IMG/VR virus record: IMGVR_UViG_3300004806_001016
Span: 1 to 33,935 of that record
DNA: 33,935 nt
Source of the DNA: a virus
Direction: 5' to 3' (one strand)
In this document: positions 1-33,935 of the stretch, piece after piece
How positions within the stretch are numbered: position 1 is the stretch's first letter
How the letters are laid out: each line of letters opens with the position of its first letter
Translations under genes and position numbers: made by a program
The notes under the pieces: model-generated
Database searches by the model: none
Seen by the model: the letters and a program-made list of their open reading frames with translations, nothing else
What the model was told of the DNA's origin: nothing

Positions 1-108
1 GATAAAGAAGCGCTGGCGAAAAAACTGGCTGAGTCGCTATCCTTGGCTGAAATCAAACAGTTACTCGGCCACTCCAACTCCAAGACGACTAAAAAGTACG
101 TCCACTGA
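1..108 (+). CDS. int: Tyrosine recombinase (phage integrase), C-terminal fragment
   Basis: The first frame is open from the window edge to a TGA at 106-108 and gives the last 35 residues of a protein. The end reads LLGHSNSKTTKKYVH, the C-terminal box of tyrosine recombinases: LGH carries the conserved catalytic histidine, and the tyrosine three residues from the end fits the nucleophile that attacks DNA. The upstream catalytic Arg, Lys and HxxR residues lie outside the window. The enzyme would catalyse site-specific integration and excision between attP and attB. It is the only plus-strand gene visible, and its last 20 bases overlap the 3' end of the giant virion gene tail to tail, so it belongs to the phage and not to flanking host DNA. 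The family call is confident; the exact type (integrase or XerC/D-like) is not resolvable from this fragment. Confidence 0.88.
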   Translation, partial: DKEALAKKLAESLSLAEIKQLLGHSNSKTTKKYVH

Positions 109-3100: not shown

Positions 3101-6100
3101 CAGCGCGTTTGCAAAGTCGCGCAGGATGGTTTTGTCGAACACTTCGGGGCGCGCAATCCCCAGGGCGACCATTGCCCGGTCGCGCTGCGACTCGTATTCG
3201 CTTCCGTACTGATGCGCTTGCCCCATCACTGAGCGAATCAAAACCTGAGAGCGCTCAATCATCGAAGCCGCCATGCGACTCGAGGGGGTTCCAATCGAGC
3301 GCAGCTTGTCGGTGATGGGCGCGAGAAAGCGAGTAACAAAGCTGCCTTGAATGGAATCGTGAATGCCCCAGCGAACCTGCGCCAGCATTAATCGGTCGTA
3401 TTGCTGCTTCACCCCCAGATAGTCGGCTCCGTGCAGGGCCAGTAGCTGGGGATTTGCCTCTCCCTCTTTGCTCAGCTTGAGCCAGTCCGCCATTTTGTTC
3501 AGGGAGTCAGCCACCTCTGGGCTGGTCGTTCCATCCTTGCTGAGATTTAGACTGCGCTGAACGAAGGCGTCCGGCCGCGCGCCAGCGTTCGGCGGAATCA
3601 TCATCTTCGCTCCATGCACCGGCTGAAAGTCGTTACGCAAAAGCCCAATGCGCGCCTCGTGCTCGGCTGCCGCACGCTTCAAAATCGGGTCAGCGAGCCG
3701 CTGAATCTCAATAAATTTACGACCGTTCTCGACTCGCATCTGTCGGTCAGCGACGCTGGTTTTCAACTCCTGCAAATGCCGCAATAGCCGGTCCATCTTC
3801 ACCGCCAGCCGGGGTAATTTCTTAGCCATGTTTCGGGCGTCCGAAATAGCCGAGTCGCCGCCCTGAGTCGCGTTGTGGATAATTTTGTTTGCCTCGGTGA
3901 GTTCTTTTGTCAGCGAGCTGCGATCTCCGGCGGCATCAACTTGCCGCAATGCGAGCAAATCCATGAGATGCGCGTTACCTTTTGCAAACGAAATTGCGGT
4001 TGCCAGCAGCGCGCGCGCTTCGGGAGTCTTTTCGAGCAGTGGCTCAATTAAATGCCCGTTATCCACCTCGCTCAAATCGACCGCTTGCAGCGAATTCCGA
4101 ATGTCGCCCGGGGTGGACTCGACCCAATCCATATCACCCATCGCACTCGCGAGCGCCTGCAAAGTGTCGCTGTAATCTTTTCCGCCAGCCAACTTTTTCG
4201 CCAGCGCGTCAAGCGCCTTGACATAAGGCTCTGGTAGCGGGTTGTCGCCTTTGATGTCAGTGTCAAGCTGCCGCAGTATTTGGTCGAGCGCGCCAATTTT
4301 GCGCGCAGTCTTCCCGATTTCGCCAGCAGCATCGCGAATAGCCTGAGTGTCTTTGACGGTCATCCCAATCAAGTCAGACATTCGCAACTTAGCCTGCGCG
4401 TAAATGAGGTCGAGGTTGCGATATTCTGTCAGTGCGGTGGCGTGCCGCTCGATGTCTTTGGTAAGGGCGTGAGCGTTAGCATTCACCTCAGACTTTACAT
4501 CGCGAGCCTTGGCCGCAAGGGTTGTGCGGGTCGCTTCCAGCAGGTTCCGCGCGATGGCTGAGGCCTGTTGCTTTGACGCCCCGTCCGCAATGTCGGCAAC
4601 CTTTATGCTTGGGTCAATTAAAGTCTGCCCAATGGATTGCAGCGCTTTATTTCCTTCGGCGATCTTGGTTGCCGGCGTTTCGCCTTTGCCGAAATACTTC
4701 ACGTCTCCAATTTGAACCGGCAACCCAATCGCGCGAGTGAAGTCGTCAATTCCCATCCCTTGCGGTAAATGCCCCTCTTCTAAGACGGCTCGATGAATAG
4801 TTTCAATGGCGTCACCGAGTTCATTCATCGCGGCAGCTTTTGGCGTATTGACGGCGGTCGAATTTCGATCTGCCGAAATGTCCCATTTTGGATCTGAGAC
4901 AAAGGAGACATCGCGATAGCGAGTCATGACTGATGCCGGGCTATCGTAATTCACCTCAGCCATGCGCGGGCCACCCATGAAACTTGTCAGACTCATGCCC
5001 TTGCCTGACAAGAACGAACGCATCCGCGCCTCAAAATACGCCGCCGCGCGCTCTGGCGACGGCGTTAACCCCATCGCCTTAATCAACCCCATCGCCACTC
5101 GCTGATAAAGCTCTCTAACAGCAATCGCGATGCGCTGAACTGCGCTACGAGCCTCCTCTGGGTCAAACCCGGACAAGGCAAGCTTCTGAGCAATAGACTC
5201 AACCAGCCGTCCCTCCTGTTTCACGGCGGCAGGGTTTTGCTCGCCCGGGGCGACGCGCTCCTCGTATGAACCAATACCAAGGGCTTCGTTTGTAGCGCCA
5301 TCGATAGCTTGATGCAGCAAGGCTTGCGTCTCTGGCGTTTCATCCGCGAATACGCAGTGGCCAGCCTCATGCAAAAGCGAGATAACCGTGTTCGCTGTTG
5401 GTTTGGTGGTGTCTTCGAGCGCAACCGTGATCGCCTTCGAGGTTGAACCTTTGTCGTTCTTCCAAACCTCCATCTTGGCGCAGTCTTTCGCCATCCCGGC
5501 AATTTCGGGGGCGAGTAGGCGAGTTTCGATTCCGCGCGCACGCAACGCATGGATGATGCGTGGCACGAGCAGGTGTGCCTGAGCATCAGAAATCACATGC
5601 TGAGAAATGACCACCTTCGCGCGCTCGCGAGTCATTGGTGGCGTGAACATCGAAAGCTTTCCACCACCGAGTCGCTGACCGTTGACCACCATTGTTGGCT
5701 TCTTGAAATCTTCCGGCTGCGCCATGTTGGGGATGGCGTCAATGAAAGCAATGCCGCTTGGTGTTACAATCGAGTTTTCATCGTGAGCATCGCCAAGGAT
5801 GATGCCGGTACGAGGATTGTAGTAATCGAATTCTTTGCCCGGTATTAATTGATACCCGCGCCGAGCCATATCCGCCTTAACCTCGGCCGGAGTAGCGCCG
5901 CGACCGGACACATCCTTTTGTTTGAAAACTGGCTCGATTGGAACCGACTTTCCATCGCGCTTGCCGCCTTCCATGAAACCAATAAACTCCAGCTTCGTTT
6001 CCGGAAACAGGGAGTTATGTAAAGCAATGCGATCAAAGAAGTGCAGCCAGGTTCCGTGTGCGCTACCATCGTTCGCCTTAATCCAGTTGCCGTGCCCGTC

Positions 6101-9100
6101 TGGGTACGCGCGATTTTCCATCCCCTCAATCTTGCCGCCAGCCTTCCAGTTTTTATCGAAGTTGGCGCGGTCAATCATCAGGCCATTGGCCTTTGCCCAC
6201 ATCAGCAAGGCAGCGGTCTCTTTCGGCCTTATTTTTTCGTCGAGGGCGGTGCGTTCTGTGCCGCGCGTTGGCTGTTTTGCGCCAGCCTCCGCGCTTGCGC
6301 GATGCACTCCTTCGAGGATCGTATGGGCTGCGCCAATATGTGTGCCGTCAATAGCTCGCTTTGCTTCCGGTGGTAGTTGTTCAGGATGGTAGGCGTCTTT
6401 TTCATTGGCGATTCGATAACGAGTTGAAACTGTACTGCCTTTGTCAAGTGACGCAAGGTAGGCGTCAATGTTGTGTGCCGGAGTCCCCTCTAATGGCGCA
6501 TACTCATCGCCAAATGGATTCTTCCCTTTGGCGAGCAGAGACAGGGCATCGCTGTGCTCTTCAAAGTCGGAGCCGATGAGTTTATCGAGCTTGGCCTGAT
6601 CTGTGGCCGGTAATGATTCGATGGCGGAGTCAACGTCACCCTTGCTCTTTTTTAGAGCTTCGGAGAGACGACCGCCGAGGGTATCGGCTGTTGATTTGGC
6701 AGGCTTGGGCGCGGGCTTTGCGGCATCATTTGCGGGCTTGCTGGGTGCTGCATCTGCGCTTGGACGACCGCCATCCTTGCCTGCTCCAACTTGAGCCGCA
6801 TCGCTTCCTCGCCCAGCGGTTGCCGGGCCACTGCTTGCTCGGTCTGCGGCTGGCTGAACACCTCCGGAAACACTATCCGAGCCGCCTCGTCGCAGGCTTT
6901 CTTTCCTGACGGACTCAATAAATTGTACTCGCGCTCGGCCTGCTCCCGCATGGTTCCTCTGTGCTTCGGTAAATGCTTCATATAGGATTCTGGACGCTAA
7001 ATTAATTGCTACTCTGGCTTCGCTTTCTGTTTTGATTTGCAAGCCAAGGTCGCGGGCGAGCGCGCGAAACCCCATGCCAAGCTCTGGGGTTTGCTTGATA
7101 ATCTGAAAGACATCTTCAGGCGACTCTACACCCAAACCATGCAGCGCGTCAAATATGTCCTCCGCGTGGTCAGAGGTAAAAGCTGAGCTTTCGGGCGCAA
7201 TGGACGCTGGCCCAGCGGCCGCAGCCGGCGGCGGAAGGTCGTCGGATTCAAGCTTGGCACCACGCCCGTCAGCGCTCTCGGCCAGCGAGTTTTTTGCTTC
7301 TTCAACGGTTGCGCTATCGTGCGGTTTTCCAAGTTCGCTCGACATCTCTGCGTGGTGATCGTCCAACAGCGCTGCCGCCTTGCTGGTTTCCGATTCTTTT
7401 TCCCACAGCGTGTTTTCGAGCCTTGACCATTCTTCTGGCGAAAACGTGGCCAGAAAATTCTTGCTGTAATCCTTCTGCTTGATGGTGGCCAGTGGTTGCC
7501 AGCCATCCTTTTTCACCAAATCATCAAAGTTTCTGACTTTGGGTTTGCCGTTGGCGTCATACATTGTGACACGGTCAACCCCACCCGTCCGATACGCTTG
7601 CCCTAAAACAACATGGCTATCATCGGGGGCACGCAGAGCCACCAGCTTTTTGGTCGTAGAACCATTCTTGCCAGTCTTGGACGCAGAGTCGTCGTAAGCG
7701 CGCGCCTTGGCTTGTTCCAGCGTCATCCCGCGTAGCGGCTCGTAAGCCTTTGCGGTTTCTTGACCAGCTCCAACTCGCTCGACTCCGACCTCGCCGCCGC
7801 GCTTCACCTTTAAGCTGGCTACCCTTTCCTGAAATTCTTTTTCAGCAACAACTGGATCCGCTCCACCGCGAATGTCCTTATCGCGCTTCTTGAGGGCTGC
7901 TCGAAGCTCGAGGGAAGCCGCGCCAAGTTTATTTTCAAGTGAAGCATCACCCGTTGAAACCGACTTGTCTCCGGCTCCGGCCTCGAACGCACCTTGCGCG
8001 CTCTCATGGATTTGCTCCGCCGTAGCGGTCGCCTTCACCTTGCGCCATGATTCAACTGGCGGCTTTGCAGCCAGTGGCTTTGTGGTGTCTCCCGATTTTA
8101 CCCAATTTTCAAAATCTTGCTTTGGCATCTCTGTGACGCCACCAATGCGCTCATCGGCCTTGCCATCAGAGAAACTGGCGCGATAAGCGGCCAGCGCGTC
8201 ATCCTTCGAGTTGTAGCCCAGCAACGCCTTGTGCTCGTCAAAGCCGCCATCGGCGTTCAACTGGTCAATCACCCACGCTTTTTGAAATCCATCCGGATTC
8301 GGGCCGATGGTGACATCCACATGATCGCCGTCTTTACCCTCTGTGCCTTTGACGTAACCATAGTCGCCCGGCATTTTGACAGACCATTCTTTTCCGCTCG
8401 CGTCGGTTCCAGATCGAATTGAGCCAGCCGGATTTTCAATAGTGACATCTAGGCCACCGATTTTAACGTGGCCCTTGACGTAATTCCCTGCCTGCTTCTG
8501 CGCTTCGGTCGGTGCTGGAGATGCTTGCACTTTTTGCGCTTCCTCATCAAGCTTATCGGCAACCGGGGTGTTCGAGATGGCATTACGCGCCTCGGTGAGG
8601 CGATCAACCGCCGGGGCTGGCGCTGTCGCCGCAGGCGTGTTCCCCAATCGTAAGGACGCTTGGTCGTCCACGGCAACAGGCGCAGCCTTGGCGATTTCTA
8701 CGGAAGATGGCGCGGGCGCGGGCGCGGGCGGAGCGACCGGCAATGAAGCCACCGGCGCGGCTGGAGCCACATCAGCCGACGCCAGTGGTGAATTTGGAGG
8801 GAGCGCAGGTGTTACGGGTGACTCCGAAGATGGCGCGAGCGGCGTGGCAGCGGCAGCCTGGTTCCGTTGCCGCTGCCGCTCGTTGATGTAAAACTCGTTC
8901 TCGCCACCGAGCGAATCATCGCTTTGAAGCTGGCCAAGCTGGCTAACATCATCGGGCGTGAGCTTTCCGCTTTGCTCGCGGCTCACAATTTGGCTGATAA
9001 TCGCCTTACGCTCAGGCGAAACATCGTAGCTGGCAGCTGGATCAATGCTTGGTGGCTGCGGCGCGGGAGGCGCGGGCGCGGGAGGCGCGGGAGGCGCGGA

Positions 9101-9859
9101 CACAGCGGCTTGAGGTGCCTTCTCGCCGGCACCCGTCCAATCACGAGGATGCCCTAACAGCATAGCCTGAGCTACCGCCGAGGTGATTCCCTTGAACGTA
9201 GGAGCTTGCCCTTCAACAAGTGAGCCAGCGGCTCCAAACGCAGCCCCCATGCCGGTCTGAATCGCCAGCGCTTGAACTGCCTGCCGCTCCGGCTCTTTTA
9301 GTGCCTTCCAAGTCGTTTCTCCCCTTGCGATTATTATGAGAGACGCTGCTCCGCGAGCCGCTTCAAGTGGGGCCAGCTTGAAAATCGTCGCCCCGCCCGC
9401 AACGTCGCCAGCAAACGCCGCATAGGGATGCTGCTCCTGATCTGCGGCCTGATATTTTTCCAGAGTCGAGTGAACACTCGGAGCAACTTCTTTAAGGGCG
9501 GCCGATTGAACTTTGTCACCCAGCAAGCCGCCGATAAATGCGCCAATGGCATTGCCGACAAACTTGCCAGCACCCCAACCAGCCGCTTCAGATGCGCCAG
9601 TCTCACCAGCGCCCGGCACCAACGCGCCAGCAGCAGCGCCAACATAGCCGCCAATTTGCGAGCCAATCAGGGCGGCGGCAGACGGAACCACACTTGTAGC
9701 TGCGGCGCGTCCAGCGGCACCGATGGCTGTGGTTTGAGGTAGCTGTCCTTCGAGCGGCGGAAGTCCAGCAAGCAGGTCGTCACCTCCGGGCGAGGCTTGG
9801 GCATCAGCTTTTGGTAACGGTGGCAATCCGGCGAGCAGAGCGTCGGCGTCGGTTGGCAT
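89..9859 (-). CDS. Giant polyvalent virion protein: pyrophosphatase-like, kinase-like and HExxH peptidase domains
   Basis: This 3256-residue protein is the last gene of the virion operon, four bases after the 532-residue internal protein. N-terminus: the octapeptide LLAGLPPL occurs twice (residues 8-15, 29-36), then a Gly/Ala-rich glycine-zipper stretch (about 45-115) that could insert in membranes, then Pro-Ala linkers. Residues about 455-592 match the inorganic-pyrophosphatase-like domain of phage polyvalent proteins (GNYVKGHV, MPGDYGYVKGTEGKDGDHVD). Residues about 1205-1380 match the polyvalent-protein kinase domain, with DAHDEN at 1357-1362 as the likely catalytic loop and an Asp at 1374 as the likely metal ligand. 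HEAGH at 1497-1501 marks a zinc metallopeptidase. The remaining 1700 residues are mostly helical and charged, with one hydrophobic segment near 2925-2945. Known polyvalent proteins are thought to enter the host with phage DNA and blunt defences; that role here is inferred. The start is an ATG after AATAAT, with no clear ribosome site. Confidence 0.85.
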   Translation of the reverse strand: MPTDADALLAGLPPLPKADAQASPGGDDLLAGLPPLEGQLPQTTAIGAAGRAAATSVVPSAAALIGSQIGGYVGAAAGALVPGAGETGASEAAGWGAGKFVGNAIGAFIGGLLGDKVQSAALKEVAPSVHSTLEKYQAADQEQHPYAAFAGDVAGGATIFKLAPLEAARGAASLIIIARGETTWKALKEPERQAVQALAIQTGMGAAFGAAGSLVEGQAPTFKGITSAVAQAMLLGHPRDWTGAGEKAPQAAVSAPPAPPAPAPPAPQPPSIDPAASYDVSPERKAIISQIVSREQSGKLTPDDVSQLGQLQSDDSLGGENEFYINERQRQRNQAAAATPLAPSSESPVTPALPPNSPLASADVAPAAPVASLPVAPPAPAPAPSSVEIAKAAPVAVDDQASLRLGNTPAATAPAPAVDRLTEARNAISNTPVADKLDEEAQKVQASPAPTEAQKQAGNYVKGHVKIGGLDVTIENPAGSIRSGTDASGKEWSVKMPGDYGYVKGTEGKDGDHVDVTIGPNPDGFQKAWVIDQLNADGGFDEHKALLGYNSKDDALAAYRASFSDGKADERIGGVTEMPKQDFENWVKSGDTTKPLAAKPPVESWRKVKATATAEQIHESAQGAFEAGAGDKSVSTGDASLENKLGAASLELRAALKKRDKDIRGGADPVVAEKEFQERVASLKVKRGGEVGVERVGAGQETAKAYEPLRGMTLEQAKARAYDDSASKTGKNGSTTKKLVALRAPDDSHVVLGQAYRTGGVDRVTMYDANGKPKVRNFDDLVKKDGWQPLATIKQKDYSKNFLATFSPEEWSRLENTLWEKESETSKAAALLDDHHAEMSSELGKPHDSATVEEAKNSLAESADGRGAKLESDDLPPPAAAAGPASIAPESSAFTSDHAEDIFDALHGLGVESPEDVFQIIKQTPELGMGFRALARDLGLQIKTESEARVAINLASRILYEAFTEAQRNHAGAGRARVQFIESVRKESLRRGGSDSVSGGVQPAADRASSGPATAGRGSDAAQVGAGKDGGRPSADAAPSKPANDAAKPAPKPAKSTADTLGGRLSEALKKSKGDVDSAIESLPATDQAKLDKLIGSDFEEHSDALSLLAKGKNPFGDEYAPLEGTPAHNIDAYLASLDKGSTVSTRYRIANEKDAYHPEQLPPEAKRAIDGTHIGAAHTILEGVHRASAEAGAKQPTRGTERTALDEKIRPKETAALLMWAKANGLMIDRANFDKNWKAGGKIEGMENRAYPDGHGNWIKANDGSAHGTWLHFFDRIALHNSLFPETKLEFIGFMEGGKRDGKSVPIEPVFKQKDVSGRGATPAEVKADMARRGYQLIPGKEFDYYNPRTGIILGDAHDENSIVTPSGIAFIDAIPNMAQPEDFKKPTMVVNGQRLGGGKLSMFTPPMTRERAKVVISQHVISDAQAHLLVPRIIHALRARGIETRLLAPEIAGMAKDCAKMEVWKNDKGSTSKAITVALEDTTKPTANTVISLLHEAGHCVFADETPETQALLHQAIDGATNEALGIGSYEERVAPGEQNPAAVKQEGRLVESIAQKLALSGFDPEEARSAVQRIAIAVRELYQRVAMGLIKAMGLTPSPERAAAYFEARMRSFLSGKGMSLTSFMGGPRMAEVNYDSPASVMTRYRDVSFVSDPKWDISADRNSTAVNTPKAAAMNELGDAIETIHRAVLEEGHLPQGMGIDDFTRAIGLPVQIGDVKYFGKGETPATKIAEGNKALQSIGQTLIDPSIKVADIADGASKQQASAIARNLLEATRTTLAAKARDVKSEVNANAHALTKDIERHATALTEYRNLDLIYAQAKLRMSDLIGMTVKDTQAIRDAAGEIGKTARKIGALDQILRQLDTDIKGDNPLPEPYVKALDALAKKLAGGKDYSDTLQALASAMGDMDWVESTPGDIRNSLQAVDLSEVDNGHLIEPLLEKTPEARALLATAISFAKGNAHLMDLLALRQVDAAGDRSSLTKELTEANKIIHNATQGGDSAISDARNMAKKLPRLAVKMDRLLRHLQELKTSVADRQMRVENGRKFIEIQRLADPILKRAAAEHEARIGLLRNDFQPVHGAKMMIPPNAGARPDAFVQRSLNLSKDGTTSPEVADSLNKMADWLKLSKEGEANPQLLALHGADYLGVKQQYDRLMLAQVRWGIHDSIQGSFVTRFLAPITDKLRSIGTPSSRMAASMIERSQVLIRSVMGQAHQYGSEYESQRDRAMVALGIARPEVFDKTILRDFANALEHRKDLNSVEEGIRAGMEHLRLDDATKEMMGKPGATAAVEKWMRLHVEIAEWGVKTGAWMGNKVLDGNTYRDVIGNAPTTLPRQLSSEAETLFLKMGEWAKEKLTKAGVRFDASQDIEKLRESLKSRFTPEQRFFVSELCKNKQGRSAFYAPEEGGINRFATRERVATAYEMAGGDLGFDPIKFSEMLYKLEGGKADPAKFADFVGETMETFQSYYDLLSASRSDYSDLQDNGHPSPKRFIMDARKCEEMPAGFYDYLPFDKTTLTQLTKSQAYNAAFGRRMTAMRETLQKAEAEQLALAKQYEDLKALYPDLKGKKLRDAIRGEMKSQGLDQVIMENAQRNAKSVAANAKQIESVLGMNRNRPPEQAAFAEIMGAIAAGTVSGPGTAITAHEVIFEQWFRKFGFNTAGLRLTASATEEIAKVAFGSLLQAFHRQAFWDTRLTKLNNTVGVFDDDATLSIKDKWRSALVHPIYAENQMLRGVIMAGRLAKTALTVGVGRAQEGKAVFPTLKPLSVFHWAAQVIQLGGANAWAKIYEGNVMAGVEHFASHPEDLANKDFQFTAKHLGWPEGRAFDYLKSSMTKYGMTFEQLTRDAVARREADSTAPLLHQSTYRYAAQQCLDDMTMESSLTTRPTWLMTNSLGQMANPMLGWAVHKGYDAVRGFREPNGQKSYSAFGTGLAAYAAILPIGMAFAMLRNKFDEDVLGRKQNVEDLTTIHDPKSALLTVCDNASRIGTFGVFGEVPNYWLNRDSGVRPISIDSRVFFLSTILNTQNAIMNLVHQRSMDYATVVRPLLQSLGGNGFLQYAGALNHALSLDDAEARVTGRISVNNYLRVAGRELNLDVRTMNGTMQMASSPSPIKPLVGKMLMAAYANNANDFQEAKREAIQAQLAMLEDDKKMTGKDKNLEAQKKVAQAFADSSPLRSVFKTLPTEYEYRKMIAGMDSQGRESVATAINLFQHYGQQIGATGGVFARSVAPTSLAHTLTLNDARERMIASPISGRTF
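126..208. repeat. Cluster of inverted and direct repeats beside the integrase stop (possible att or recombinase-binding region)
   Basis: Within 100 bases of the integrase stop there are two perfect 8-base inverted repeats: CGCTCACG at 126-133 with CGTGAGCG at 146-153, and GGCGCAAC at 171-178 with GTTGCGCC at 201-208. Between them is a direct repeat, GAGCAAGCGAAG at 157-168 and GAGCGAGCGAAG at 180-191 (11 of 12 bases match). All of it lies inside the C-terminal codons of the giant gene. No T-run follows either stem on the plus strand, so a plain intrinsic terminator for the integrase is not well supported. Arm-type or core-type recombinase sites are the alternative; this is inference. Confidence 0.35.
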
Positions 9860-18069: not shown

Positions 18070-19866
18070 TTAGGGCTGTGTGACGTTCATCAGTATTCCA
18101 TTCGTGAAATACAGCGTGTTCGTCCTAGTGCTGCCAAAAGTGAACTGGATGTTCGTAGTGTATCCGCCAGTTATGTTTGTGGCGTTCAACTTGCCAACAA
18201 GGTTGGTTGCCGTAAAGGTGCCATTTCCACCCAGCGTGAAAAGACCGCCCGGAGTTGTAAGGTTGAATTTCCCCTGCTGCGCCCAGACGTTTTCAAAATG
18301 CACATTGTTACCATCAGATCCGGCAGTAAAAATTTGGTTCATGGGGTAGAAAACCACATTCGTCGTGTAGAATGTCCCATTCTGGCCAAATCCAAATTGA
18401 CCACCGGGGGTAATGACGTGAAACTGACCTTGAATGATCCAGTTGTTTTCGACATGCACGTTGTTGCCATCTCCACCCGGGTTGATGTCTTGATTCACTG
18501 GCCAGAACGTAGCCGGCCAGCCAAGGTGAAATTGCTGCCCAACATAGCCACCGTTGTTGGTTATACCAACAACAACGCAGTTTGCCGCAGTGTCAACGAA
18601 CAGCGGACAGAGGTTTTGAGCCTGATTAACAAACCGAAAGCCCCAATCGTAAGAGCCGCCGCCAGCATCCCGATCACAGGCAAAGGTGGTTCCGCAAACC
18701 GGAATGAAATGCGTGCCTATATCGCCACCATACGCCTCTTCAATCGTAAATGCAGTGTTTCCGTTCTCTTGCATGGCCCAAACAGTCGGGGTGTTATTGA
18801 AAAAATTTGTGACAGCTGACCCCGTCCCAAACACAGTCGGGTAATACCACGCGGCGTCTGGGTTCGCAAATAATTGGGGCTGCGTGGACGCGAAAGAGGT
18901 TCTAATCGCCGCGTCAATCGCTGTCGCTAAATTTGTGTTCACCGCCGCAGTCAAATGAACTCCGTCAGCGGTTACAGAGGTGTTTAAGCTGCCGTCAGAG
19001 TTCGTCCATGTCGAAGGGGGCGCAACATTGTCGTAGTTCACGAAGGCAATGCCCTGGTTCGTCAGCGATTGCTCCCACTGAGTCAGCACGGCCCGGCCCG
19101 GTTCAGCGGCCGGAGTGTTGTAAATATACGGGCACGAAATCACCAACAAATTTGCGCCAGCGCCAGCGGCTTTTGTAATAATTGATTGCGCGTTTGCAAT
19201 GACGCTGGTAGCCGCGTTTAGCGCTTGCAGCGTGGTTGTAATGGACGTGTTGAAGTCATTCCTACCAAACATGACGGTAAGCGTTGCTCTGTTTCCAGTA
19301 TGGGTCGGAAAACATGGGTAAGCAGCATCCATTAACTGCTGTGAAATGTAGCCAGTTGACCTGCCGCCTTGCGCCGTGTTCGTCAGCACGTTGTAGCCAT
19401 ATTTTCCAGCTAACACCATTGGATAGCTGATGAGCGTGCTGGGGTTGGTAGTCGTCAGCGAGTCACCGACCGCGATAATGCGATAGGGATTGTAATTCAG
19501 ACTCGTATAGCTGCTTGCCACTTTGACGAGATTTGAGGCCGAAATTTGACTCCCTACGCCGGCAGATGTGGTTGCGTTTGCCAGCGCGTTCGATTGAGCC
19601 GGCGTCAACGCATTCGTGTTCTGGGAAAATGCGTAGGGCTGGATGAAGTTCCAGAACGCCAATGCGGCGTTGGTGTCAGATAGCCAGAAAGTGGCAGCTT
19701 GAGCGCCGGTCGCTTGAATGATGAAGTTCTGGCCCCAGGGCGACAGATATGGAATTCCACGGTACAGTCCGACCGGATTTGTGATGTCGGCCTGAGCGTA
19801 AGCCGGATTGCAGCTATGGCTTAAAGTTGCGATGATTGCGATTGTGAGCTTGATTAGGTTTTTCAT
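18070..19866 (-). CDS. Tail spike with SGNH/GDSL hydrolase domain and Sec signal peptide
   Basis: The protein has 598 residues. Residues 1-24 form a Sec signal peptide: a Lys near the start, a hydrophobic core (LTIAIIATL) and an AYA cleavage site before Gln25. Residues about 125-325 carry all four SGNH-hydrolase blocks: GDSL at 134-137 (catalytic Ser136), TAQGGRS around 165-170 (oxyanion Gly), GRND at 201-204 (Asn203), and DGVHLT at 301-306 (Asp301, His304). Such domains remove acetyl or other esters from polysaccharides. The C-terminal half is Asn/Gly/Thr-rich beta repeats with a 52-residue duplication. It lies between a small virion protein and the nozzle, so a receptor-degrading spike is likely. 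The exported form is odd, because virion proteins normally assemble in the cytoplasm; it may instead modify the envelope of the infected cell. Confidence 0.8.
   Translation of the reverse strand: MKNLIKLTIAIIATLSHSCNPAYAQADITNPVGLYRGIPYLSPWGQNFIIQATGAQAATFWLSDTNAALAFWNFIQPYAFSQNTNALTPAQSNALANATTSAGVGSQISASNLVKVASSYTSLNYNPYRIIAVGDSLTTTNPSTLISYPMVLAGKYGYNVLTNTAQGGRSTGYISQQLMDAAYPCFPTHTGNRATLTVMFGRNDFNTSITTTLQALNAATSVIANAQSIITKAAGAGANLLVISCPYIYNTPAAEPGRAVLTQWEQSLTNQGIAFVNYDNVAPPSTWTNSDGSLNTSVTADGVHLTAAVNTNLATAIDAAIRTSFASTQPQLFANPDAAWYYPTVFGTGSAVTNFFNNTPTVWAMQENGNTAFTIEEAYGGDIGTHFIPVCGTTFACDRDAGGGSYDWGFRFVNQAQNLCPLFVDTAANCVVVGITNNGGYVGQQFHLGWPATFWPVNQDINPGGDGNNVHVENNWIIQGQFHVITPGGQFGFGQNGTFYTTNVVFYPMNQIFTAGSDGNNVHFENVWAQQGKFNLTTPGGLFTLGGNGTFTATNLVGKLNATNITGGYTTNIQFTFGSTRTNTLYFTNGILMNVTQP
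18160..18471 (-). repeat. Tandem 52-residue repeat in the spike C-terminus
   Basis: DGNNVHVENNW...QGQFHVITPGG...NGTF at residues 466-517 is repeated as DGNNVHFENVW...QGKFNLTTPGG...NGTF at 518-569. A partial earlier copy is suggested by FWPVNQDINPGG before residue 466, matching FYPMNQIFTAGS before the second copy. The pattern suits stacked beta elements of a trimeric spike. Confidence 0.8.
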
Positions 19867-19869
19867 GTA

Positions 19870-20253
19870 TTACGGGGTGATTACAGTGGTTGAGGTTTGA
19901 ACATTTCCGCCAGTCAGTTGCCATGCCGTTCCGTCCCATTCCAATAATGCGGCAGTGGCCGCGGTATTGAACAGCAAAGACTGAAACCCAGCGAACACGC
20001 CAGACACAGTAAAGGGTGCCGTGATTGCGGCATTGGCCCCAATGACGTAAATGCGCTTGACTTGGCGCAAATAAGTTCCATTTGGCAGCACGAGGTTGTA
20101 TTTGCCAACCGATTTTGGCGTGATTTGGTTGATGTACGTCGGGTCGGCGCCAAGCTGGATGATGTCATCACCAGTCACAACTTGCACGGTTGGCGACTCA
20201 GACGGCCGCGACCACGGCGGCAATGGGCTAGTTCCCGGGATTGAGTTATTCAT
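19870..20253 (-). CDS. Small beta-rich virion-associated protein
   Basis: The protein has 127 residues and no family I can name. Residues about 50-120 are a series of beta strands (GKYNLVLPNGTYLRQVKRIY, then LLEWDGTAWQLTGGN) resembling small jelly-roll or spike-collar domains. The N-terminus is Pro/Ser-rich and likely flexible. Its start overlaps the adaptor stop by four bases (ATGA) and the spike starts three bases after its stop, so the adaptor, this protein and the spike form one translational unit. A role joining the spike to the adaptor ring is plausible from position but not shown. Confidence 0.6.
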   Translation of the reverse strand: MNNSIPGTSPLPPWSRPSESPTVQVVTGDDIIQLGADPTYINQITPKSVGKYNLVLPNGTYLRQVKRIYVIGANAAITAPFTVSGVFAGFQSLLFNTAATAALLEWDGTAWQLTGGNVQTSTTVITP

Positions 20254-21621: not shown

Positions 21622-21660
21622 TTAAAAAGCTGGTCGCGGCAAACCCAACCACGACCAGCT
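21622..21660 (-). terminator. Intrinsic terminator after the secreted 189-residue protein gene
   Basis: The perfect 9-base stem AGCTGGTCG (21628-21636) / CGACCAGCT (21652-21660) has a 15-base loop. On the minus strand it is followed by TTTTTAATTG. It lies in the 109-base gap between two genes read leftward, where a terminator would separate the transcripts. A second small stem, GGCTG/CAGCC, lies at 21672-21689. Confidence 0.75.
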
Positions 21661-21695
21661 CGCATTTAACCGGCTGCCACGAAACAGCCAATTAA

Positions 21696-22265
21696 TCAGT
21701 ACCAAAACCCAGCGCGTGCAGATACCAGGTTCAGGTTGTTGGTGCCAGCGTAAGAAAGGTTTATCACCTTAAACCATTTTGCACCAAGGAAGTTTGTGGC
21801 CGAAACAAACGAGATGTACGCAGTGTTATTTGTGGTTTGATAAACCGATGCCGTAACTGTAAGCAGCGAGTTGGTTGCCACTGGCCACTTCGCAGCCATC
21901 GAAGCATCGTCGAGCGCCAAGGCGACCGTGGCCGTCAAGCTTTGAACCGGTTGCGGCGTGTTGTTCGTGTTTACTTGGGCGGTTACCCATTGAAACGAAA
22001 CTCCGTTCGCATTCAGGTCGGCTGGAGTGACGCCTCGCGTGGCGATCCACCCGCCAGCACCGGCCTGGCCAGCGATGCCGGTAGCATAGTTCGCCGCAAC
22101 CAAGTTTGTCACAACGCCATTGCCCGCAATCAGCAAATTAGTTGCCGTCAGAGGCGCGCTGTAATAATACGAGACAGGCTGTGCGATTGCCGCCGCGCAG
22201 AACGCAGAGACAAAGCAAAAGGCCACAAGGATTCGATTGACGCCAAATTTGATTTTATTTTTCAT
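21696..22265 (-). CDS. Secreted small protein with Sec signal peptide, next to the capsid gene
   Basis: The protein has 189 residues. Residues 1-28 are a signal peptide: Lys-rich start, hydrophobic core (ILVAFCFVSAFCAAA) and an AIA cleavage site before Gln29. The mature part is Thr/Asn/Ala/Val-rich beta structure (SLTATVALALDDASMAAKWP, SVYQTTNNTAYISFVSA) and ends in Tyr. I do not recognise a family. It sits between the capsid gene and the head-tail genes, flanked by hairpins, and so may be expressed at its own level. An exported protein at this location is unusual. It could be an outer-surface or periplasmic protein made late, or a captured host gene. The start ATG has an A/T-rich leader without a clear ribosome site. 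Confidence 0.65.
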   Translation of the reverse strand: MKNKIKFGVNRILVAFCFVSAFCAAAIAQPVSYYYSAPLTATNLLIAGNGVVTNLVAANYATGIAGQAGAGGWIATRGVTPADLNANGVSFQWVTAQVNTNNTPQPVQSLTATVALALDDASMAAKWPVATNSLLTVTASVYQTTNNTAYISFVSATNFLGAKWFKVINLSYAGTNNLNLVSARAGFWY

Positions 22266-22342: not shown

Positions 22343-24193
22343 TTAGTTGCCGCTCAGATCAACACCCGGCACTGTGAGCTTCACTTTGGTCGGGTTGTAG
22401 TTTTCGATGATGCGATGCCGGTTGCTGTTACCAACCCGCACAGAGAACTTCTTGCTCTCCATGAGGATGGATTGCATGTTCATTTCCATGACGTACTTGA
22501 GGCCATAGATGGCATCAGCGGCGGCATTGGAGTTCGCGGTGCGCGTCACACTCATCGCCTTGATGAGGGCAACCGCAATGTCCGACCAGTCGATAAACCA
22601 CATCGAGTAGCCCGCCGTTTTCTGGCTGTTCTGGAACTGACTGATGCGGTCATCGAAATACAAGTCGCTGAACACATTGAGCGTGTAGCCCCATTCCGGC
22701 AATTCGTAGGAGTCGTACTCGAATAGAACGGCACCGTTGAACGTGATTTTCTTGCCCTGCTCCATCCACATGGACACGTTGTCGATGCTGTATTTCTGTT
22801 TGTAGTACTTCGTCATGATCTGACGAATGAGCGGGCGAGTGCCGCGCATGTCGGTCATACAATCAATTTCCGTGACCTGCTGACCGGATTCACCCTCACG
22901 CTCCCGGCGCAGGTAATACCCCGCTTCGAAGATTGCGTCGAGGTCGAGCGGCCCGCCACCAGCATCGAGGACGTTACCGCAAAGCGCGATCTGGTTGCGA
23001 ATACCGATGGTGCGAGTGCGATATTCAATCGCCATCGTTCCAGACTCGCCGGACGCCGCCCAAGCGGGGTCGTACACCGTAGGCAAGTTTTGCCACAGCT
23101 GCGTGGTCTGGTTTTCGTCTTCGGCGTCGCCGTAAAAACAGGTTTCAAAAAACTGGCGCTCGCTTTCAGCTTCTTGCTGCTTGCGCAACTGCGCCAACGG
23201 CAACAAGCGGAATTTCGCCAAACCGGCAGAGGTTTTGTCTGCCGCGGCAGCCTTGAGCAGGTTCAAATACTCAGCATTGTACTTGTGTACGCGCCGAGTC
23301 GTTTGCGGCCAATAATCCACCAAGCCCCATTCGTTGAAGCCCGGCAAAGCATTGCCGTAGCTCTCGAAATTACTGACGGAATTGGATTGCAGGCGCACGA
23401 TGCCAATCACAGGCTGATAGGCAGCCTTTTGAGGAGTCGTCGCGCTGTCGTACCAAGTACCAGTCGCAGCGCCATTGCCACCCCAGTTACCGCCATTGGG
23501 GTAAGTGCGGTTCGGGGCCAGAATCACCTTGGCCTGATTGGCGTCCACGTTGAACGCACCAACGACATGCATGGTGCTGGTGTATTTTGCGCCAGAGTTT
23601 GGATCACTCCATTCCACAGTCACGCCGTGGCGAGGGAGGAAGAATTTTTCAATGTTCTTCAACACGTTGTTTGGAGATTTGGCGAGCCAAGAGCTGTCAG
23701 CATCCAATGAACCGTTGTTCACGGTAACAGTCCAGTGACCAGCCGAAGCGGTCTGGCTAGTGCCGCCAAGTAAGCCGGCGGCGGCAGCGGCGACCAAGTC
23801 GGCATTCGTCGAAGCTGCGCCAGCGGAAAGGCGAAAGTAACCAGGATTAACCCGGTTGCGGCGCGGCACGAGATCGAACGGCTGAATAATTGATTGCGGC
23901 TGAGCGCCGGCAGATACTTTCAGTGGGGTGTGGCGGGACAGCAGCAAATCCATCAGCGTGCGCTGAGCAGAGCCAGCCATGCGCGCCTCCTTGGTTTGCG
24001 CGATAACCTTGTCGAGGCCGACTTCCTTGAACATGACAGATTCAATGTCGGATTGATTCCAGCCAGTGATGTTGGCGCGAGTCAAGCTCATCGCGTCGTC
24101 CACCATGATTAAGCGTGGATTGCAGGCGTTGGCGTTAAAGCCGTTGGCTGCAGTGTTGGGCGCTTGGGATGCGCCGGCGGGTGTATTGGCCAT
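22343..24193 (-). CDS. Major capsid protein
   Basis: The protein has 616 residues. It follows the scaffold and precedes the head-tail genes, the classic place for the capsid gene. It starts with an Ala/Asn-rich arm, then DAMSLTRANITGWNQSDIES. The middle includes GVTVEWSDPNSGAKYTSTMH and NRTYPNGGNWGGNG, which look like a loop or insertion. The C-terminal part has GLKYVMEMNMQSILMESKKF and ends TKVKLTVPGVDLSGN. Beta and helix segments of this sort fit an HK97-type fold with insertions, and the length is above the common 300-400 residues, so an extra surface domain is likely. The transcript context is special: a strong terminator and a CAA-rich leader precede it and a hairpin follows it, fitting high, independent expression. 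The identity is by position and composition, not a motif. Confidence 0.75.
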   Translation of the reverse strand: MANTPAGASQAPNTAANGFNANACNPRLIMVDDAMSLTRANITGWNQSDIESVMFKEVGLDKVIAQTKEARMAGSAQRTLMDLLLSRHTPLKVSAGAQPQSIIQPFDLVPRRNRVNPGYFRLSAGAASTNADLVAAAAAGLLGGTSQTASAGHWTVTVNNGSLDADSSWLAKSPNNVLKNIEKFFLPRHGVTVEWSDPNSGAKYTSTMHVVGAFNVDANQAKVILAPNRTYPNGGNWGGNGAATGTWYDSATTPQKAAYQPVIGIVRLQSNSVSNFESYGNALPGFNEWGLVDYWPQTTRRVHKYNAEYLNLLKAAAADKTSAGLAKFRLLPLAQLRKQQEAESERQFFETCFYGDAEDENQTTQLWQNLPTVYDPAWAASGESGTMAIEYRTRTIGIRNQIALCGNVLDAGGGPLDLDAIFEAGYYLRREREGESGQQVTEIDCMTDMRGTRPLIRQIMTKYYKQKYSIDNVSMWMEQGKKITFNGAVLFEYDSYELPEWGYTLNVFSDLYFDDRISQFQNSQKTAGYSMWFIDWSDIAVALIKAMSVTRTANSNAAADAIYGLKYVMEMNMQSILMESKKFSVRVGNSNRHRIIENYNPTKVKLTVPGVDLSGN

Positions 24194-24230
24194 ATTTTAT
24201 TGTTGTTGGTTGTTGTTGCGGATTGTCCGC
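24194..24230 (-). promoter_or_regulatory. CAA-rich, SD-less leader of the capsid gene with small hairpin
   Basis: Read on the minus strand, the leader contains AACAACAACCAACAACAATA followed by AAAT and the ATG, with no Shine-Dalgarno match. Just upstream is a small hairpin, GCGGA / TCCGC (24218-24230). (CAA)n leaders are unstructured and are known to help translation in other systems (the tobacco mosaic virus omega leader). I found no convincing -35/-10 pair in the 66 bases between the terminator and the ATG. Confidence 0.5.
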
Positions 24231-24259
24231 TGTTACTTTCAATCTAAGGTTACATTGTG

Positions 24260-24305
24260 AAAAAAAAAGAAAAACGCCGGAAACGGTTGATTTTGTCTCC
24301 GGCGT
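24260..24305 (-). terminator. Intrinsic terminator between scaffold and capsid genes
   Basis: The perfect stem ACGCCGGA (24274-24281) / TCCGGCGT (24298-24305) has a 16-base loop, then on the minus strand a run TTTTTCTTTTTTTT. This is a typical rho-independent terminator for the scaffold transcript. It means the capsid gene needs its own promoter, or gets only partial read-through. Confidence 0.8.
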
Positions 24306-24331
24306 GATTGTCCGCCGCTAGTTTTTAATCC

Positions 24332-25798
24332 TCAAACTCCCTTTCCGTAGAGCGTTGCGGCGACATCAATCCCGCCGCCGGGGCTTGCGACTGATTTCAA
24401 AGGCTCAGCACCGGCAGCGGACGGGCGAGGGGCTGTAATTGGAGCCACGATTTCGACTGGCGCAGTTTGAGGTTTTCCAGCTGCGCCACGCGGACGCCTT
24501 TCAAAGCCCCTGGCTTTTGCGTTCTCGATCTCCCATTTAACCCGTCCATCAATGGTATTTTTAGCTTCGTGCGCCAAATAATCTACGATTTCAGAATCCG
24601 TGAACGTCCAGTACGATTTTGACCGCCACCCTTCCCGATCCAAGCTCTCGCGCTCGCCTGGCTCAGAATTCAATTTTGCATTGAATGCTTCACGAGAGAG
24701 AAACGTTCGACCATCCTTCACCTTGTACTTGCCACCTTTTTCTGCGAATATGCGCCCCTCGCGGTCAATGAAGTTAGCCAAATACGCATGGTCAGCGTTT
24801 TTGGGGTCGTAGTCCACGCATTGATTTTTAAGCAGCAGGAACGCACCAACCCGGCGCCGGGCGGCAGTGCCCTCCTCGCGCATTACCGCAACCTCCAGCG
24901 GAAACTCTTTAGCGGCTTCCGCAACTCCTTTTTCCTTGAGCAGCTTTAGCGCTTCCGCGCAGGGAGAGCTTGGGTCGCCATCAACCAGCGACCGCAAGCC
25001 GGCCGAGAATTCTGTTGCAACCCAATTTTCAACTTTGGGCTGAATTTCGAGTCGCCGCTGTTGCTGTTTGATTTTTTCCAGTTCTGGCCGGCTTTGAGCA
25101 ACCGCCTCCTCGGTTCCAATTGCGCGCTGAACCCGCTTTGATTCAACGGGCCGAAGGGCCGGCCGGCTACTGGCCAGCGCTTGGAATTCATCGTCTTCCT
25201 CGTTGAGCGTGCGTTCGGGGTTTGCCTTGAGCAGATCTTTCGCCCTGGAATCAAAATCACGATACCATTCAACCAATTTCTTTTTGAAACCCTTGCGCTC
25301 AGGGAACAAGCGCTCTGCAACTTCCGCTTCCCGCAAGTCTTCGCGTTGTTCGGGATTAAGTGTGGCGATGTACGCCTCGTCAGCATCCACCGGTGCGGGC
25401 GCAAACGGGGCGGGTGGTTCAGGCTTCGCAATTGGCGTATCAACAAAATCCGCATTCTCTTTGGAGATTACGGACACCACTTTTTTGCGCTTCGGCGCTG
25501 CTGGCGCTGCCGCAACCGGTTCGACGACTGGAGTAACCGGAGGCTCAACAACTGGCTCGACTGTCGGCTCAGCTGCTGGCTCAATAACCTCGGCCTGCGG
25601 TTCCAGCGTTTCGAGAATCGCGGCCATTAGCGGATCGTGGGGCTGCTCCTCTTCAACTGGCTCAACCGGGGGCTCGACCGGAGGCTCGACCGGCTCAATC
25701 ACTGGAGCGACCGGCGGCGGGACTACTGCGATTGGTGCGGCCGGGGCCGGGGCCGGGGCCGGAGCCGGCGTGAGTGGTGCTACGGGTTCATCAAACAT
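24332..25798 (-). CDS. Scaffold-like head assembly protein
   Basis: The protein has 488 residues and lies between portal and capsid. Residues 1-110 are extremely Pro/Val/Glu/Ala-rich (PVEPPVEPPVEPVEEE and PAPAPAPAPAAP) and disordered. Residues about 145-345 are charged, mostly helical (EQREDLREAEVAERLFPERK, RRLEIQPKVENWVATEFSAG), as scaffolds usually are. A more ordered segment follows (YLANFIDREGRIFAEKGGKY, SYWTFTDSEIVDYLAHEAKN), and the end is Gly/Ala/Pro-rich. Scaffold is favoured by location, helix content and a disordered acidic region. The extra ordered domain is unusual, so a second role (for example an internal head protein) is possible. It is followed by a strong terminator. Confidence 0.6.
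   Translation of the reverse strand: MFDEPVAPLTPAPAPAPAPAAPIAVVPPPVAPVIEPVEPPVEPPVEPVEEEQPHDPLMAAILETLEPQAEVIEPAAEPTVEPVVEPPVTPVVEPVAAAPAAPKRKKVVSVISKENADFVDTPIAKPEPPAPFAPAPVDADEAYIATLNPEQREDLREAEVAERLFPERKGFKKKLVEWYRDFDSRAKDLLKANPERTLNEEDDEFQALASSRPALRPVESKRVQRAIGTEEAVAQSRPELEKIKQQQRRLEIQPKVENWVATEFSAGLRSLVDGDPSSPCAEALKLLKEKGVAEAAKEFPLEVAVMREEGTAARRRVGAFLLLKNQCVDYDPKNADHAYLANFIDREGRIFAEKGGKYKVKDGRTFLSREAFNAKLNSEPGERESLDREGWRSKSYWTFTDSEIVDYLAHEAKNTIDGRVKWEIENAKARGFERRPRGAAGKPQTAPVEIVAPITAPRPSAAGAEPLKSVASPGGGIDVAATLYGKGV
25743..25766 (+). repeat. GGGGCC hexamer repeat in the scaffold gene
   Basis: The plus strand (template strand) has GGGGCC three times at 25743-25760, then GGAGCC. It encodes an Ala-Pro run near the scaffold N-terminus and could form a G-quadruplex in single-stranded DNA. 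Confidence 0.7.
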
Positions 25799-31413: not shown

Positions 31414-31788
31414 CTACGGGTGAGTTTTTCGCCAGCGATTCATCCGAGCAAAATCTGAAAGAGCTTCCGGAGTGATTAAAAAAGCATTACTGCTCGTGTT
31501 TGCTATGCCGTAATTCGTGGCCAGCGGTGGAGCAAACTGCTTTCCATACACCAAAATGAGAGCATTGTAGCGGTCGCGAGCGTGCGCCGTTATGATCGCC
31601 CCACCATCTGCGGTCCACGCAATAAGCCCACTGTTTTGCTCGGCTCCGTCCCATGAAGCGGTGGATGACTTAACCACCGTTGGCGTAACCGTTGAGCACC
31701 CAGATAGCAGGCAAAGAATCCCTGCAATTACGGCGGCGGATAAAATCCACGGCAAAAAATCACTCTGCGATTTCTTCACGGATTTCAT
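31414..31788 (-). CDS. Lipoprotein, possible outer-membrane spanin-like component
   Basis: The protein has 124 residues if started at the ATG at 31788; a longer start at 31833 adds 15 polar residues. The N-terminus is Lys-rich, then hydrophobic (FLPWILSAAVIAGILCLLS), then LSGC, a lipobox with Cys31. The remainder is globular-looking (LIAWTADGGAIITAHARD, YGIANTSSNAFLITPEALSD). It overlaps the 3' end of the small helical gene by 29 bases in another frame, as outer spanins often do with their partners, but that partner has no clear membrane helix. The lipoprotein call is good; the spanin role is speculative. Confidence 0.6.
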   Translation of the reverse strand: MKSVKKSQSDFLPWILSAAVIAGILCLLSGCSTVTPTVVKSSTASWDGAEQNSGLIAWTADGGAIITAHARDRYNALILVYGKQFAPPLATNYGIANTSSNAFLITPEALSDFARMNRWRKTHP

Positions 31789-31966
31789 TGGTGTTCTTTT
31801 TTGCGATGGCTGCATTTGTCGCTGAGTTGGCATCGGTTTCGTTCTGGGCCGCTGCCGCCGCCTGCACGTTGGCCGCGTTCTTCAAAGCGCTTCGACCAGA
31901 GGCCCAGGAAAAGATTTCTTTCACCGCCGAGAACGCAGCGGTGATCACGGATGTGATCGGGTTCAC
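31760..31966 (-). CDS. Small helical protein in the lysis-like cassette
   Basis: The protein has 68 residues, starting at a GTG that overlaps the preceding lipoprotein stop (GTGA). It has a short hydrophobic-aromatic start (ITSVITAAFSAVKEIFSWAS) that may bind a membrane as an amphipathic helix, then an Ala/Asn-rich helix (NVQAAAAAQNETDANSATNA) and a charged end. No family is recognised. Tight overlaps at both ends support that it is a real gene. Confidence 0.55.
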   Translation of the reverse strand: MNPITSVITAAFSAVKEIFSWASGRSALKNAANVQAAAAAQNETDANSATNAAIAKKNTNEIREEIAE

Positions 31967-32475
31967 TTACTGGTGGGGTAAATGGTTAAAATACCCTGCG
32001 CAAATGATGTGAGTCCCGGCACTGCGTAGAGCGACCAGTTGCTCAACTTTTGGTCCAGCGCGTATCCCAAAAACGTCTGGTACGCTGCCACGCCTGCGTT
32101 GACACCAGAGATAACGCTCGGGTCAACTCCAGTGGTGAAAGCGTTGGCGATGTTTTGCACCGCATTCGGATCCGTGGAGCCTGTGCCAACCAAGTCTTCA
32201 ATGCCAGTGGCCACCGCTTGCAAATAAGCGATGCTATTGGTGTCCGACCGGCCAGCGATGGTTGCAGCGGCAACACCGGTAAGCTTCATGGTTGCAGCAA
32301 ACTGATTAGTGTTGACCGGGTTCCCAAAAACAAACAACAGTCCATTGGTGTCAGTCCCAACGACAGATGTATTGCCTGAGCCGGTCTTGCAACCGCAGCC
32401 GGTGACAATGGTGAACGTGGTAGCGATTGCGACCAGCATTACCAGTGCGATGATGTAACGAGCATTATTTTTCAT
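31963..32475 (-). CDS. Lipoprotein of unknown function
   Basis: The protein has 170 residues. It has a lipoprotein signal (RYIIALVMLVAIATTFTIV, then VTGC with Cys27). The mature part is Thr/Asn/Ala/Val-rich with GVAAATIAGRSDTNSIAYLQ and a helical end. No domain is recognised. It lies between a holin-like gene (six bases before its ATG) and the small helical gene (four-base overlap). Candidate roles are envelope disruption at lysis or superinfection exclusion. The lipobox is seen; the role is a guess. Confidence 0.65.
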   Translation of the reverse strand: MKNNARYIIALVMLVAIATTFTIVTGCGCKTGSGNTSVVGTDTNGLLFVFGNPVNTNQFAATMKLTGVAAATIAGRSDTNSIAYLQAVATGIEDLVGTGSTDPNAVQNIANAFTTGVDPSVISGVNAGVAAYQTFLGYALDQKLSNWSLYAVPGLTSFAQGILTIYPTSK

Positions 32476-33083: not shown

Positions 33084-33425
33084 TTAAGGCCGCAATGCCA
33101 GCCAGTTTGTCTGCACGTTGGTTTCCGAAAAGTGGAATATCACCTGCAAGTTGGTCCCGACAAGATTGACGCCGTACCAGGGATATTTCGGCTCGGGCAA
33201 GCGGATAACGTTGGTATGGTTCACCGCCGGGGCCGGCCGATCTTTGAAATGCCAGCGCAGTAAATTCTGTCCTTTCGTTTCGATGTCCAATAGCAGCACC
33301 AGCCCGATCAGCATGGCCAGAAAAGCAAAGATTCGCGTCAGGGCCTCAAGCGTCGGCAGCGGCCGTCCCGAAAGCCAACGGCTGGTTTTGAAGCCCCAAG
33401 TATTCAACCAATCAAGCATTTTCAT
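33084..33425 (-). CDS. Single-pass membrane protein of unknown function
   Basis: The protein has 113 residues. One transmembrane segment lies at about 31-47 (IFAFLAMLIGLVLLLDI), with a positively charged N-terminal side (WGFKTSRWLSGRPLPT), so the C-terminal 65 residues should face the periplasm. The start overlaps the fibre-like stop by four bases (ATGA). No family is recognised. The topology, one helix then a periplasmic tail, is compatible with an inner-membrane lysis component, but it lacks a clear coiled coil. Confidence 0.55.
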   Translation of the reverse strand: MKMLDWLNTWGFKTSRWLSGRPLPTLEALTRIFAFLAMLIGLVLLLDIETKGQNLLRWHFKDRPAPAVNHTNVIRLPEPKYPWYGVNLVGTNLQVIFHFSETNVQTNWLALRP

Positions 33426-33935
33426 GGCAGTAAGTTAGTGCACGACAGCACCGTGAAATTGGACCACTGACCAAAATGAATGGAGTCGAAATTCCAAGCG
33501 CCCGGCGCGGAATTGGTGAAGGATCGTAGCCCGCCGAAGCTCGCCCGCAGGACGTTCGTGTCGTAATAGCGATCCCAAGAATTGGTCTGGTAGAAATCAA
33601 TGCTGAAAGTAAACGCCGGAGCGGGATTCGTAAAAATAATCATTGTGTTATTGGTCAGCGTCAAGACCAGGCCCACACGGATTTGATTGGTGTATTTGGA
33701 CAGATCCACGACGACGTTGCTCCCGCTGGTGTAGTTGAGAACGTTGCCCAAAACGTTGGAGGATAGCCCGGTAACTTGCGAGCTGGCCACTGTGCCATAA
33801 AAATTGGTTGCCCCCTTTGAATTTCCGGAAGTGTTGTTGGTTAAAGATCCCGTTACCGAGGAACCGTTCAAATTCGTCACACTGGCACCATTGCCAGAAA
33901 GCGTTCCGGTAAACGTTCCGGCGAGGGTCAACCCC
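33422..33935 (-). CDS. Fibre-like repeat protein, C-terminal part (cut at the window edge)
   Basis: The frame is open to the right window edge, so the true start lies outside; the TTG at 33931 is not a supported start. The visible 170 residues begin with AGTFTGTLSGNGASVTNLNG and SSVTGSLTNNTSGNSKGATN, a Gly/Asn/Ser/Thr repeat typical of tail fibres and of repeat proteins frequent in Verrucomicrobiota. The C-terminal 90 residues are aromatic-rich (DFYQTNSWDRYYDTNVLRAS, FGGLRSFTNSAPGAWNFDSI) and likely fold as a tip or carbohydrate-binding domain. Its stop overlaps the next gene by four bases. A receptor-binding role is inferred. Confidence 0.6.
   Translation of the reverse strand, partial: GLTLAGTFTGTLSGNGASVTNLNGSSVTGSLTNNTSGNSKGATNFYGTVASSQVTGLSSNVLGNVLNYTSGSNVVVDLSKYTNQIRVGLVLTLTNNTMIIFTNPAPAFTFSIDFYQTNSWDRYYDTNVLRASFGGLRSFTNSAPGAWNFDSIHFGQWSNFTVLSCTNLLP

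Follow-up and report, generated by a model that had tools for sequence, protein, structure and literature searches.

Phages commonly carry SGNH esterase appendages, and receptor-binding appendages evolve by C-terminus exchange behind a common N-terminal module. The coat proteins pIII and pVIII of filamentous phages are synthesized with Sec signal peptides and become part of the virion; filamentous phages are non-tailed and assemble in the membrane during extrusion, whereas the phage analyzed here is tailed, and assembly of tail or capsid parts following export by Sec is not known to us for any tailed phage. A literature search, mostly of titles and abstracts, returned no report of signal peptides on tailed-phage tail fibres, and according to one paper phage DGR target proteins are without signal peptides (PMC6199706). 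G7C gp63.1, gp41 of the Acinetobacter phage Aristophanes and the SGNH receptor-binding proteins of Klebsiella prophages share with the protein described here (P0001) an SGNH-class esterase domain and modular N- and C-termini (PMC8471582; PMC13123978), and G7C gp63.1 and the Klebsiella proteins are active esterases (PMC13123978). These appendages have a known or inferred role in the virion, whereas such a role is only proposed for P0001. P0001 and G7C gp63.1 had no BLASTP similarity (best E 0.74), and gp63.1, the only one of these SGNH proteins that was scanned, has no signal peptide, unlike P0001. Like P0001, the lom gene of phage lambda encodes a signal peptide and borders tail genes; its annotation is that of an outer-membrane protein, whereas P0001 is fibre-like and tightly packed inside a structural operon. 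WceF of Pantoea stewartii likewise resembles a tailspike, acts on glycans and carries an export signal, but it is bacterial, has a beta-helix and a Tat signal, lies in a polysaccharide locus and is not an SGNH protein (PMC7949094).

The window, meaning the whole stretch of DNA that was analyzed, comprises 33,935 nt (IMG/VR record IMGVR_UViG_3300004806_001016, positions 1-33,935); all window features given below lie on the minus strand. The original prediction of an esterase at 18070-19866 held as to the gene itself (ATG at 19866, stop at 18070, 598 aa), which belongs to the minus strand; the export signal that it had singled out is not isolated, being found again on several of the clade's genes. 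Residues 132-308 (18943-19473) matched PF13472 Lipase_GDSL_2, the sole Pfam family found (E 2e-9; 38.6 bits vs. a cutoff of 32.9; profile positions 1-174 of 178). The GDSL, GG, GRND and DxxH motifs that had been read from the sequence were all recovered as SGNH blocks I, II, III and V (GDSL 134, GGRST 167, GRND 201, DGVH 301). By the curated Pfam cutoff and all four blocks, P0001 is an SGNH/GDSL hydrolase with predicted esterase activity; Ser136, Asp301 and His304 are its putative catalytic residues. The 52-residue tandem repeat was also confirmed: its two shaft-like copies (residues 454-505 and 506-557; 18196-18507) are identical at 30 of 52 positions, against 16 of 52 at best in 200 shuffles. 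In the earlier term spike esterase, the enzyme half is borne out by Pfam, and the word spike draws only on the repeat, the gene position and the swapped C-termini described below. The mature protein contains six cysteines, and a single-sequence structure model reached a pLDDT of 34. Direct homologue searches with P0001 returned nothing in annotated phages (tblastn), genome contigs or the PDB, and searches of viral contigs and of 17 related records returned the identical contig only. No known family of tail proteins was matched, either in PHROG, by P0001 or its homologue in the related contig L029, or by tblastn in the phage collection.

Signal peptides were called by a simple home-made rule that considers n-, h- and c-regions (threshold 6.5) rather than by SignalP. 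At this threshold, the 8/8 exported proteins encoded within 50 kb of the E. coli K-12 genome passed, plus two membrane proteins, and lom of lambda was the sole gene to pass in lambda, T7, G7C and P22 when annotated starts were used. Two fibre-like cases were missed (a 244-aa protein of L029 and a second fibre-like protein completed in contig L003), and at least one call, an internal virion protein of L028 (383 aa), is a likely false positive. The N-terminus of P0001 scored 7.06, on a par with E. coli proteins known to be exported; among 2000 shuffles of this N-terminus, 36 reached 6.5. Its predicted signal peptide (residues 1-24; 19795-19866) has the n-region MKNLIK (+2), a hydrophobic h-region and a cleavage site after residue 24 (AYA↓QAD), and with its positive n-region and small residues at -3/-1 it fits the Sec type I pattern. 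C19 was considered as a lipobox cysteine and ruled out (S-H-S-C is no lipobox), and no lipobox or other anchor was seen in P0001. Export by Sec is likely and is the most economical reading of these features.

Relatives were brought in through a portal alignment (A1) and a capsid alignment (A2), not through searches with P0001. At the same gene position the distant phage relative L029 encodes a 491-aa protein (starting MKKSLIKLSILTIALAGVLRANAQFIDVHNPAALGLYRGIPYLSTWSQ). Its alignment with P0001 covers the first ~95 residues of the latter and begins at the Met of the L029 protein, signal peptide included (52% identity, E 5e-24; alignment A5). Past the shared N-terminal module, which in mature P0001 spans residues 25-100 (GLYRGIPYLS...WNFIQP...QNTNALT; 19567-19794), the two proteins differ completely, and the L029 protein has no Pfam match and no SGNH match. 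L030 encodes a 179-aa protein there (starting MRNLFSTLLVIAAAMRCPAFPDF), with a signal peptide and a weaker match to the module (A7). The gene is absent at this position in L028, so it is dispensable. A single N-terminal module with swapped C-termini, as in receptor-binding proteins, was thus found between the window and L029, and by this alignment the conserved end includes the signal. Homologues beginning after the hydrophobic segment, which the original prediction had set against its AYA signal peptide, were not seen (0/2, L029 and L030), and the signal in both relatives strengthens that call.

P0001 lies in a run of structural genes with gaps of -4, -4, +3, +4, -4 and -4 nt. It is separated by 3 nt from the upstream P0003 (19870-20253), a small structural-like protein whose homologues in L028, L029 and L030 occupy the equivalent place, and by 4 nt from the downstream P0002 (15663-18065), a virion structural protein (phrog_3287); neither neighbour has a signal peptide. 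Further downstream, P0009 (13088-15367) is an ordinary tail fibre-like protein without a signal peptide, and a similar N-terminus occurs at the same place in relatives. Because the genes are tightly packed and promoter-like sites around P0001 were no commoner than in shuffles, the esterase is likely to be co-expressed with the structural and late genes. P0001 does not have the separate promoter and terminator, or the position apart from the late operon, of a lom-like lysogenic-conversion moron. The P0003 stop and the esterase start share a frame (19864-19872, TAA TAC ATG), and readthrough would fuse the two; the frames differ in L029 and L030, and the fusion was dropped as probably a chance arrangement. 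The late operon ends with a single 3256-aa protein (89-9859), possibly a giant internal virion protein that is injected; G018 (the phage of L029) and G019 (the phage of L030) encode apparent equivalents, of 2756 and 2816 aa.

Contig L003 (IMG/VR 3300025838_001141) is identical to the window over 15,095 bases and extends 5.9 kb beyond it. Past the window end at 33935, its positions 1-3546 carry mnmE, a DUF218 gene, tRNA-Met (2234-2310) and a tyrosine integrase directly downstream of the tRNA. Because of this host flank and integrase, this temperate phage is an integrated provirus beside tRNA-Met; no attR was found in the window. By the style of neighbouring proteins in the L030 contig, the host may be one of the Verrucomicrobiota. 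The only portal relative in genome contigs (L031, JAERSQ010000200.1) is a 4.3-kb contig of the MAG 'Proteobacteria bacterium isolate BH10', too short for a host call.

Signal peptides were also found beside the capsid gene. The gene following the major capsid protein (22343-24193, assigned by position and by conservation in alignment A2) encodes a 189-aa protein (21696-22265; score 9.25) with a signal peptide at about residues 1-28. Its orthologues carry a signal in 5/5 genomes (the window, L013, L028, L029 and L030), and the five signal sequences hardly align (A6). A structure model (pLDDT 68) placed the signal helix before a mature part predicted to be a beta-sandwich; the matches in fold searches were all weak and of jelly-roll-like type (best PDB hit at E 2e-3; TM at most about 0.4). 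A strong terminator-like hairpin of 14 pairs (21627-21661) lies directly 3' of this gene and separates it from the downstream tail genes.

A fibre-like protein encoded 5' of the terminase has a signal ending in ...ADGxxGG in all three genomes where it is visible (A8). One of the three contains collagen repeats (PF01391) and has a tail fibre family as its best PHROG (2e-15), that of L029 carries a Peptidase_S74 chaperone domain (PF13884, 2e-6), and that of G019 (619 aa) had no Pfam match and looked SGNH-like by eye (GNS, DAVH). The C-terminal end of a second fibre-like protein lies at 33422-33935; its start in L003 is signal peptide-like (MNLVLTFALIMLAGSIVAQQP) and was missed by the rule because the n-region has no positive charge. 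Two putative lipoproteins are encoded at 31963-32475 (lipobox IVTG↓C) and 31414-31833 (LLSG↓C), the latter possibly o-spanin-like. Just 5' of the packaging genes, L029:1701-2288 and L030:1782-2378 have a signal peptide and barrel-type ends (...GAGFTF and ...TGLTFKF) and are possible phage-encoded outer-membrane proteins. Amid the tail genes of G018, an ORF resembling sulfotransferases (FFITGLPRSRTAWLANLLS; 24208-25275, plus strand) is possibly another surface-modifying cargo. The structural cluster of G019 includes a cysteine-rich radical-SAM-like protein (52878-53888, minus strand) that adjoins an acetyltransferase-like ORF.

With free choice of start, 16/103 ORFs in the window's clade passed the rule, vs. 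0/102 in six contigs of a sister group whose portals are about 50% identical to those of the clade (Fisher p 2e-5, a guide only, which overstates the case because ORFs of related genomes are not independent). In six other phages, two of them from Bacteroidetes hosts, 5/160 ORFs passed, and no head or tail gene was among these. By these counts, signal peptides on fibre-like and capsid-adjacent proteins are a clade-wide pattern, and P0001 is one instance of it.

We propose that P0001 is a modular appendage of the fibre-like kind, expressed late, and that in this phage an SGNH acyl-esterase serves as its effector domain. Residues 1-24 would act as a Sec signal peptide, and the protein would be exported, cleaved after AYA and folded outside the cytoplasm. 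Set free at lysis, it would act on host surface glycans, most likely by removing O-acetyl groups, and its conserved N-terminal module would probably serve to dock it onto virions, again outside the cytoplasm. We give this reading as a whole a probability of roughly 0.4. Within it we infer export, cleavage, esterase activity, substrate, late expression and docking, the last being the most conjectural; the putative substrate is proposed by analogy with G7C gp63.1 and the Klebsiella SGNH receptor-binding proteins. The position of the gene within the structural operon, C-terminus exchange, several exported fibre-like proteins per genome and the enzyme-less version in L029 argue slightly for joining the virion, and docking is slightly favoured over staying with the producing cell. 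Against the scheme stand the ordinary signal-free fibre P0009, already present, and the rule-based nature of the prediction, the same rule having flagged the likely internal virion protein of L028. The wider proposal, that the clade exports virion parts by Sec (fibre-like appendages, an esterase spike and the capsid-adjacent beta-sandwich protein) and finishes particle assembly only after lysis, outside the cytoplasm, is on present evidence rather unlikely.

P0001 might instead be exported and never enter the virion, as a late enzyme, cell-associated or free, that strips acyl groups from receptor glycans, so that progeny would not be trapped on debris or the cell would be closed to superinfection; taken together, these proposals are possible and fall short of probable. 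The signal peptide and the SGNH domain suit such an enzyme as well, P0009 could serve the virion as its ordinary fibre, and the outer-membrane-protein-like ORFs of L029 and L030 would be companions in export. There is precedent of a sort in lom, an exported outer-membrane protein encoded next to the tail genes and the one high-scoring gene of lambda, and in WceF, a bacterial exported enzyme of tailspike fold that acts on glycans (PMC7949094). Set against this are the missing lipobox or anchor, the position of the gene between virion genes and the number of exported fibre-like proteins per genome. The L029 homologue moreover shares the N-terminal module and by Pfam has no esterase domain, so receptor stripping cannot be the common task of the family.

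Failure of export is improbable. P0001 would then be a virion protein assembled in the cytoplasm with its hydrophobic N-terminus uncleaved, or Sec would ignore that N-terminus during infection. Tailed-phage assembly is indeed cytoplasmic, and hydrophobic N-termini do occur on certain internal virion proteins, the 383-aa protein of L028 that passes the rule being a case in point. Yet P0001 shows the complete n-h-c pattern, including small residues at -3/-1, the pattern recurs on unrelated proteins of the clade, and it is absent both from the 102 ORFs of the sister group, which has homologous core genes, and from the head and tail genes of the control phages.

It is very unlikely that P0001 is a periplasmic peptidoglycan O-acetylesterase aiding the endolysin at lysis. 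SGNH enzymes include such esterases, one of which (4K7J) was the modelling template for the tailspike of phage Aristophanes (PMC8471582), and export would place P0001 correctly. Such an enzyme would not be expected to have shaft-like 52-residue repeats and a fibre-like C-terminus, however; the domain is missing from the L029 homologue, and P0001 lies outside the lysis region, the holin-like and lipoprotein genes being at 31.4-33.4 kb. A misread start, with the true protein beginning past the hydrophobic segment, had been allowed for in the original prediction and is now largely refuted: a clear Shine-Dalgarno sequence is missing before the ATG at 19866, but an in-frame stop lies two codons upstream (TAA-TAC-ATG), the later in-frame starts are codons 69 (TTG, within the conserved module), 87 (TTG), 116 (GTG) and 150 (ATG), and L029 aligns from its own Met.

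The enzyme of P0001 is thus an ordinary kind of phage SGNH domain, and what is unusual is the export signal that recurs on fibre-like and capsid-adjacent proteins of the clade. Recurring in the clade and absent from the sister group, these signals conflict with the standard cytoplasmic assembly of tailed virions. If the proteins that bear them join virions, part of particle assembly would happen outside the cytoplasm; if they stay out of virions, these phages would secrete a fibre-like toolkit onto or around the producing cell.
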